A stretch of DNA of 64,000 nucleotides from Paraburkholderia sprentiae WSM5005. GTDB lineage: Bacteria > Pseudomonadota > Gammaproteobacteria > Burkholderiales > Burkholderiaceae. This document shows, piece by piece, positions 29,643 to 55,507 of this stretch (positions are counted from its first letter, which is position 1; each line of letters opens with the position of its first letter). Location: assembly GCF_001865575.2 (NCBI RefSeq), contig NZ_CP017561.2, positions 2,976,001 through 3,040,000 on the forward strand. Direction: 5' to 3'. The position numbers and the translations under genes were made by a program. Under the pieces are notes generated by a model, which was given only the letters and a program-made list of their open reading frames with translations, was not told the DNA's origin and made no database searches.

Positions 29643-29778
29643 CGCGAAAGTTGGGCGAGAAACGTTTCAGGGCATTGCAAACAGACACAGACGCGCCGCC
29701 GGGCGCCGCACGAAGCGGGCGCTCATCCGCCGCCTCGGTGACGGGCGGCGTCGGGGAACGCACATGACTATCTGCACA

Positions 29779-29952
29779 TCTTCTTCCATCCGGACTATGA
29801 CCGTCGGCTCTGGCTTCTGACCAGATCTGCTGACCCCGCGGCTGTCTTCGAGATTCCGGAGACCACTCGATGCGGGCGCTCGCGGGCTTGCCGGCTCACG
29901 CTGTCGCGCTGCCGGCCTACCGCCGGTGGGGAATTTCACCCCGCCCTGAAGA
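29779..29952 (-). promoter_or_regulatory. FMN riboswitch (RFN element) upstream of ribB
   Basis: Read on the minus strand, the conserved RFN blocks appear in order: tcttcagggcggggtgaa at the 5' end, then attccccaccggcggt, agcccgcgagcg, ggtcagcagatctggt, agaagccagagccgacggtc and atagtccggatggaagaaga. These are the core of the FMN aptamer. The following segment contains a GC hairpin (cgccgcc with ggcggcg, 29728-29750) that probably belongs to the expression platform, so FMN would shut off ribB by blocking translation or by early termination. Confidence 0.95.
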
Positions 29953-30095
29953 CGCACTGATTGCCGGTTCGACCGGCCGGCGAAGCATACAACAGTCGCG
30001 CGGGAGCTGCAGCGCGACAAACAATGACCCTACTGGCGGCGTTAGACCTGCATCGACGCGCTGAGCTACGCCTGATCCTCGAGCGCCGTCGATCC

Positions 30096-53519: not shown

Positions 53520-53948
53520 TTAGATCTCGAGCGCCTTCGGCTGTTGCGCCGAATGCGGATGCGTTGCTTCAGCGTAGACCTTCAGCTTCTTGATCATCGC
53601 GTAGCCGAGCGGGCCCTTCGGCAGCATGCCTTTGACCGCCTTCTCGAGCGCGCGGCCCGGGAAGCGTTCCTGCATCTTGCCGAACGTCGTTTCATAGATA
53701 CCGCCCGGGTAGCCCGAGTGACGGTAGTACTTCTTGTCGGTAACCTTGTTGCCCGTGACCTTCAGCTTGCCAGCGTTGATGACGATGATGAAATCACCAG
53801 TGTCGACGTGGGGAGTGAATTCAGGCTTGTGCTTGCCGCGAAGACGGTGTGCCACTTCGCTGGCGACACGCCCGAGAACCTTATCCGTCGCGTCAATCAC
53901 GTACCATTCGCGCGTCACCTCATGGGCTTTTGCGGAAAACGTCTTCAT
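53520..53948 (-). CDS. rplM: 50S ribosomal protein L13
   Basis: 142 residues with typical [33 protein letters not shown] and [20 protein letters not shown]. First gene of the rplM-rpsI operon, with a strong sigma70 promoter about 120-150 bp upstream. L13 is an early assembly protein and, in E. coli, an autorepressor of this operon. Confidence 0.97.
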
Positions 53949-54099: not shown

Positions 54100-54163
54100 A
54101 ACCTGCGATGCGCTTGCCACGAGCGGTCCGAAACCGGGGGAAACGCGGGCGCAGACATGGGCG

Positions 54164-54252
54164 AAAAAAAACCCGAACGAGCGGCTCGGGTTTAATCCAC
54201 CAAAGGAGGAGGTGGAGGAGACAGCGGAGATCGCACAACTGCTGCGACGATG
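54164..54252 (-). ncRNA. Predicted small RNA with an anti-Shine-Dalgarno loop
   Basis: A predicted minus-strand transcript of about 89 nt with promoter (54259-54287) and terminator (54164-54193: aaacccga with tcgggttt, followed by eight U). The central hairpin 54197-54215 has stem ccacc/ggtgg and a 9-nt loop tcctccttt, close to the anti-Shine-Dalgarno tail of 16S rRNA (CACCUCCUUU). Further cu-rich sequence (ctccgctgtctcctccacc) precedes it. A weak 5' hairpin (cgca/tgcg) is also possible. No open frame of note lies inside the transcript. The loop could pair with ribosome-binding sites of many mRNAs, probably with Hfq. It lies upstream of the independent rplM promoter and is not its leader. Function is inferred. 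Confidence 0.6.
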
Positions 54253-54258
54253 AGACGA

Positions 54259-54287
54259 ATTATAAGGGCCGCCCTTGGACGGCGCAA
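54259..54287 (-). promoter_or_regulatory. sigma70 promoter of the predicted small RNA
   Basis: On the minus strand ttgcgc (54287-54282), a 17-bp spacer and a perfect tataat (54264-54259). The expected start is about 54252. The remainder of the intergenic stretch up to the OsmC-family gene (54288-54584) holds no other supported feature beyond a possible tacaat (-10) at 54541-54546 for that gene. Confidence 0.62.
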
Positions 54288-54584
54288 GAACATCTGCATT
54301 GCGAAATGTGATTTCATAATGTGGCAGATGCCGCGCGTGAGGGTGCGTTCATCGAAACTCCTTTTGCATCGATGATTCATGATTAAACGACGCCGATCGG
54401 ATAACACATCGCTTAGAGCGAAACCCCAATGGCTTGCGCAATTCAGGAACCGCCCGTCCGTTTCGCACTGCAGCAAAACAGCAAATACCATGCATAACCT
54501 CGCGATGCGCCCAGCGTGCGCTGACCGTCAGGCACCGGGCTACAATGCCGTTTCGACTAAGCGATGCGCGGTGGGAGTGACAGC

Positions 54585-55007
54585 ATGGAATGCAAAGTAA
54601 GCTGGATGGGGCAAGACGGGATGGCGTTCGCGGCCGAGACGGGCAGCGGTCATCTGGTCGCGATGGACGGCGCGCCCGAAGGTGGCGGCCGCAACCTCGC
54701 GCCGCGTCCGATGGAAATGGTGCTGCTCGGCACCGGCGGCTGCACCGCCTACGATGTCGTCATGATCCTGAAGAAGAGCCGCCAGGAGATCGCCGGCTGC
54801 ACGGTGACGCTGAAGGCCGAACGCGCGAGCGAAGATCCGAAGGTGTTCACGAAGATCCACTTCCACTTCACGGTGACCGGCAAGAATCTGAATCCGGCGA
54901 CCGTCGAGCGCGCGATCAATCTGTCGCACGACAAGTACTGCTCGGCGTCGATCATGATCGCGAAGACCGCCGAGCTCACGCATTCGTTCGACATCGTCGC
55001 GCTCTGA
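54585..55007 (+). CDS. OsmC-family protein
   Basis: A 140-residue OsmC/Ohr-type fold protein, probably a thiol peroxidase or redox protein. The two cysteines expected of the family are in TGGCTAYDVVMILKK and HDKYCSASIMI, suited to reduction of organic hydroperoxides. MECKVSWMGQDGMAF at 54585 is preferred as start because gggag is 7 bases upstream; the frame opens earlier at 54564. It lies between the predicted small RNA and rnpB and ends at a bidirectional terminator shared with rnpB. Confidence 0.85.
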   Translation: MECKVSWMGQDGMAFAAETGSGHLVAMDGAPEGGGRNLAPRPMEMVLLGTGGCTAYDVVMILKKSRQEIAGCTVTLKAERASEDPKVFTKIHFHFTVTGKNLNPATVERAINLSHDKYCSASIMIAKTAELTHSFDIVAL

Positions 55008-55087: not shown

Positions 55088-55097
55088 ATTCAGCGGC

Positions 55098-55507
<410 letters not shown>

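Follow-up and report, generated by a model that had tools for sequence, protein, structure and literature searches.

The window analyzed here, a stretch of 64,000 nucleotides, carries the gene for ribosomal protein L13 on its minus strand and a divergently oriented OsmC-like gene on its plus strand, with a predicted small RNA (sRNA) between them that reads toward rplM. The features of this locus are as follows.

53520..53948, minus strand: rplM (ribosomal protein L13; PF00572), downstream of the sRNA
54099-54070, minus strand: rplM's own promoter, TTGACT-18-TATAAT, found by promoter scan
54163..54252, minus strand: predicted primary transcript of about 90 nt, its start placed ~7 nt past the -10 box
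54163..54223, minus strand: RF02278 core, consisting of UGUCUCCUCC, the 5' hairpin, the terminator hairpin and the U run (cmscan and alignment)
54164..54193, minus strand: intrinsic terminator with eight U, hairpin 54193-54169 and eight T 54171-54164 (terminator scan and sequence)
54197..54215, minus strand: 5' hairpin CCACC / loop UCCUCCUUU / GGUGG (fold and pair count); counted on the sequence, CCACC is 54215-54211, the loop TCCTCCTTT 54210-54202 and GGTGG 54201-54197
54213..54221, minus strand: 5' CU run TCTCCTCC (54221-54214), or UCUCCUCCA with the stem foot (fold and conservation)
54259..54287, minus strand: sRNA promoter TTGCGC-17-TATAAT, with TTGCGC at 54287-54282 and TATAAT at 54264-54259, read from the sequence and with similar boxes in relatives
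54297..54321, minus strand: imperfect inverted repeat CATTATGAAATCACATTTCGCAATG, a candidate operator directly upstream of the sRNA -35 box
54585..55007, plus strand: OsmC-like gene of 423 nt (PF02566), the divergent neighbor

Rfam scanning also located a class A RNase P RNA (window 55094-55507, minus strand) and an FMN riboswitch (window 29774-29957, minus strand).

A preliminary description of this DNA had proposed a minus-strand promoter of the form ttgcgc/17 bp/tataat, a hairpin whose stem is ccacc/ggtgg and a terminator ending in eight U, and all three were recovered where it had put them, as was the near-consensus promoter that it had attributed to rplM. The -35 box of the sRNA promoter fits the consensus at only 3 of 6 positions, and the promoter is missing from the promoter scan of the window; by eye, CTTG together with TATAAT, TATACT or TACACT occupies the equivalent place in 19 of 21 aligned relatives, the exceptions being L027 and L028. 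In L015, L020 and L023 the -10 box almost abuts the CU run, and the RNA lacks its 5' extension. For the 90-nt strand the folding energy is -30.1 kcal/mol (z -3.99), a value equalled by 1 of 200 shuffles, and the pattern TCTCCTCC-N6..16-GGNGGATT, devised post hoc from sequence already seen, has a single match in the window and is absent from all of 100 shuffles. The hairpin loop presumably resembles the 3' tail of 16S rRNA, the anti-Shine-Dalgarno (anti-SD) sequence. The 3' part of the adjacent CU run UCUCCUCCA, the likely pairing seed, forms the foot of the hairpin stem.

The RNA belongs to RF02278 (Betaproteobacteria_toxic_sRNA), which cmscan matches over its full length (1-64) to window positions 54163-54223 on the minus strand with 69.8 bits, against a gathering cut-off of 50 (E 4.9e-12). 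The sequence traits of the family are present, namely the UGUCUCCUCC run, the CU-rich hairpin loop and the terminator hairpin, and the functional part would seem to be the core from 54223 onward. Two other families were rejected because they score below cut-off, NmsR (RF02877) with 24.5 bits against 52 and anti-hemB (RF02837) with 26.8 bits against a gathering cut-off of 49.5. The sRNA is not a new find; it is already known through a curated family and an experimentally studied orthologue: it falls within RF02278 and is the positional counterpart of ncS27 of Burkholderia cenocepacia. A real regulatory RNA had been recognized from sequence alone, yet one of a known family.

The comparison of genomic place turns on strain J2315, in which we take BCAL3348 to be rplM. 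There, ncS27 is a 92-nt RNA of RF02278 at complement 3666557..3666648, between BCAL3348a and BCAL3349 and on the strand opposite to both, and BCAL3349 has been re-annotated to start at 3666965 and end at 3667387 (PMC4603805). The re-annotated BCAL3349 is therefore 423 nt, equal in length to the OsmC-like gene of the window, and the window sRNA likewise lies beside a gene of this length, on the rplM side, and on the strand opposite to the BCAL3349 equivalent. In B. aenigmatica (L019) the order is OsmC, sRNA, an additional ORF of 102 aa, and rplM; the additional ORF is presumably BCAL3348a, and this order fits the J2315 layout.

Conservation of the sRNA upstream of rplM was examined in 80 named rplM loci, 44 of which carry TCTCCTCCA upstream of the gene and on its strand, one of these (L061) without hairpin or terminator. 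The sequence TCTCCTCCA is absent upstream of rplM in the remaining 36, including those of Massilia, Duganella, Janthinobacterium and Paraburkholderia fungorum (L012), and among these L010 and L032 are represented by just 323 and 61 bases upstream. A covariance model built from 43 sequences (the window and 42 of these rplM loci) matches 45 of the 80, always upstream and on the rplM strand, with 42 of the 45 matches being training loci; the matches include L081, which is without TCTCCTCCA, and L061, matched weakly and in part (E 0.0017). From another starting point, order-level RF02278 loci have rplM in their flanks in 17 of 29 cases and OsmC in 22 of 29. The loss of loop and terminator upstream of rplM in related genomes, which would have spoken against the RNA, was thus not what was found, the sRNA being kept there in many relatives; this supports the earlier view of an independent small RNA that contains stretches resembling the anti-SD.

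Within the RNA, TCTCCTCC is kept in 44 of the 45 model matches at rplM loci, a count biased by the preselection of 42 of them by TCTCCTCCA, and the CU 5-mer of the loop is kept in 39. Next to the hairpin, the CU run UCUCCUCC is at least as conserved as the loop, a comparison that is only suggestive given the biased sample. At order level, TCTCCTCC is found in 26 and TCTCCTCT in two (L101 and L113) of the 28 loci, out of 29, at which the script located the RNA; the locus that the script missed (L107) nonetheless shows it. The hairpin stem also covaries across 31 distinct segments. Because the RNAalifold structure for the alignment contained only 10 pairs, apparently from a misaligned insertion, pairs were counted by script, with L095 and L107 dropped and with L079 and L112 scored as unpaired since the script cut them short. 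Stem position 10 is C-G in 20 segments, U-A in 9 (including L081 and L102, in shifted folds) and unpaired in 2, and position 8 is C-G in 25, U-A in 2 and unpaired in 4.

Copies of the RNA are common in the family and rarer beyond it. The genome itself (7.84 Mb, 5 contigs) has four RF02278 copies over cut-off, at C1:3627509, C1:3390299, C1:3030163 (the window copy) and C5:61233, with a fifth match under cut-off at C2:912621 (35.5 bits). Sass 2017 gives three to five copies per Burkholderia genome (PMC5688073). The copy at C5:61233-61291 (L004) is carried by a contig of 488 kb that may be a secondary replicon. Of 200 genomes sampled from the family, 182 have an RF02278 match that exceeds cut-off and 187 have one at E 0.001 or better; the corresponding figures are 75 and 128 for 200 genomes from the order, and 16 and 27 for the 299 of the phylum sample. 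The 16 over cut-off in the phylum sample all belong to the same order, and 9 phylum-sample genomes outside it have matches below cut-off only. No RF02278 match occurs in the 14 control genomes of each of the family, order and phylum searches.

Candidate targets were sought as matches to TGGAGGAGA, the 9-nt complement, located 3-12 nt before an ATG, the one start codon covered. Seven such sites occur in the own genome and none with the reversed control. Four lie at plausible gene starts, those of a solute-binding protein (of sugar type, by our reading), an AMP-binding ligase, an FAD oxidoreductase and an amidohydrolase, and the other three (L117, L118 and L121) are read here as lying inside ORFs. 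The solute-binding-protein gene is preceded by UGGAGGAGA before its ATG in 30 of 30 sampled genomes of the genus, counting the best match per genome and including the own one, with nine further, less similar matches falling outside this set; moreover, the 23-nt block CAGGTGTCTGGAGGAGATAAGCA before the ATG is identical in 29 of the 30 (L122-L151). For the ligase, the site is present in 4 of 8 anchored orthologues, 15 of 23 not being anchorable, and no complement site is found at rplM in any of the 19 loci printed. Duplex energies computed with the first 60 nt of the RNA are uninformative, because, of 43 start regions taken from the window as controls, 10 equal or better the value for the solute-binding protein. 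The seed-only duplex at this gene (-18.9 kcal/mol) is reached by none of the 43 controls, a circular result in that the gene was chosen by the seed pattern.

Taken together, it is very probable that the window sRNA is orthologous to ncS27 and that, as one of the double-hairpin RNAs of RF02278, it occludes in trans the ribosome-binding sites (RBS) of selected uptake and catabolism mRNAs rather than serving as a general decoy of the anti-SD kind. The present analysis itself supplies family membership and synteny, the evidence on conservation and on covariation of the stem, and the seed match conserved at a single solute-binding-protein gene; transcription, length, processing and the growth effect are taken from papers on B. 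cenocepacia. The assignment to ncS27 draws on genomic place and family membership, and by this analogy the window copy may be expected to behave like its counterpart. The proposed course of events begins at the sRNA's own promoter, which would yield a transcript of about 90 nt, probably trimmed to a 60-nt core. The core would act in trans through its CU run UCUCCUCC and its CU-rich loop, both of which would pair at the Shine-Dalgarno regions of certain mRNAs, those whose products take up and break down sugars, amino acids and aromatics. Such pairing would block ribosome entry, probably with Hfq, whose part is itself conjectural. At low nutrients the sRNA would help to switch metabolism off, and its excess would slow growth, hence the name 'toxic'. 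Published work on ncS27 is in line with this scheme. The RNA is 92 nt long with a confirmed 3' end (PMC4603805, PMC5688073), its overexpression slows growth and its antisense speeds it (Sass 2017, PMC5688073), and RNAs of its type are described as affecting selected uptake and catabolic functions (PMC5688073, PMC10987360). In a study of two host models, the 14 genes listed as 'core detrimental fitness genes' include ncS03 and ncS27 (PMC12013268). The authors of Sass 2017 caution that target predictions include many false positives (PMC5688073). Counting against the scheme are the duplex energies described above, the absence of the ligase site from half of its anchored orthologues, the 36 rplM loci without TCTCCTCCA and the weak growth effect of S17S in E. 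coli BL21 (PMC11722255).

A general decoy, which would sequester many RBS unspecifically and dampen the whole of translation, was among the functions first suggested for this RNA, with the loop as its key element. The two CU-rich stretches do resemble the anti-SD, RF02278 owes its name to growth inhibition of E. coli on overexpression (PMC5688073), and complements shorter than 9 nt must be far commoner than the full one. However, the growth effects of ncS27 are substrate-specific, appearing on some substrates and not on others (review PMC10987360), and S17S of Bordetella pertussis lacks a comparable toxicity in E. coli BL21 (PMC11722255). The full 9-nt complement, moreover, precedes an ATG just seven times in the own genome, four of them at plausible starts, and the loop CU 5-mer is absent from 6 of 45 loci versus 1 of 45 for TCTCCTCC, a contrast that is only suggestive. 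A broad decoy centered on the loop is accordingly improbable.

Still less likely is a leader or attenuator of rplM, in which hairpin and terminator would govern read-through into the ribosomal operon. Its appeal lies in the position of the RNA, whose 45 model matches all fall upstream of rplM and on the rplM strand, but the strong terminator is followed by a separate rplM promoter, none of the other four matches in the own genome, of which three exceed cut-off, has rplM or OsmC in the flanks examined, and the published entry for ncS27 gives 92 nt and a confirmed 3' end (PMC4603805, PMC5688073). That a hairpin and a promoter without function met by chance deserves almost no credence: consensus elements of this kind do arise randomly, and the -35 box is poor (3/6), but the RF02278 match (E 4.9e-12), the conservation and covariation, and the absence of the pattern from 100 shuffles have already refuted this reading.

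One further element that may bear on the ncS27-like RNA is the inverted repeat at 54297-54321; in relatives L008 and L016 its counterpart is a 92% palindrome. Among 20 promoters the top palindrome match falls at the equivalent spot in 10 and elsewhere in 9, with none in the wrongly anchored L011; L035 and L039 were not anchored. The own genome contains only one further site, a weak one with 3 mismatches, and an inverted-repeat search upstream of the sRNA promoter (minimum length 8, seed 6) returned no pair. It is conceivable, if rather doubtful, that the rplM-linked sRNA has its own regulator, the candidate operator coupling it to a nutrient signal, and that, within the genus, a sugar-type ABC transporter is one of its main targets, the 23-nt RBS block of this transporter being kept as a pairing site for the family. 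The conserved transporter site and the upstream dyad are the sole fresh, testable leads on the targets and switching of RF02278, and bear on how this family gets switched and what it controls.

Of the known systems, ncS27 of B. cenocepacia J2315, with its paralogues ncS03, ncS05 and ncS62, corresponds to the window RNA in Rfam family, in an OsmC-length neighbor on the rplM side, in a predicted length of ~90 nt, in its CU runs and terminator, and in having several paralogues per genome. B. aenigmatica L019 differs in the extra ORF between sRNA and rplM, for which the 215-nt gap of the window is too short, and in a loop one nucleotide longer than that of the window. S17 of Bordetella pertussis has, like the window RNA, a CU-rich 5' end in its processed form, described as closely matching an RF02278 member, but it occupies another genomic place and has a precursor of about 190 nt; expression of S17S in E. 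coli BL21 impaired growth only modestly, at stationary-phase entry (PMC11722255). NmsRA and NmsRB of Neisseria meningitidis (RF02877), which repress TCA-cycle genes through their anti-SD runs, differ from the window RNA in having three stem-loops and tandem copies (PMC5362039). They share with it a pair of anti-SD runs, of which the first lies between stem-loops and the other sits in a loop (PMC5362039), and the likeness of NmsR to double-hairpin RNAs is already in print (Sass 2017, PMC5688073).
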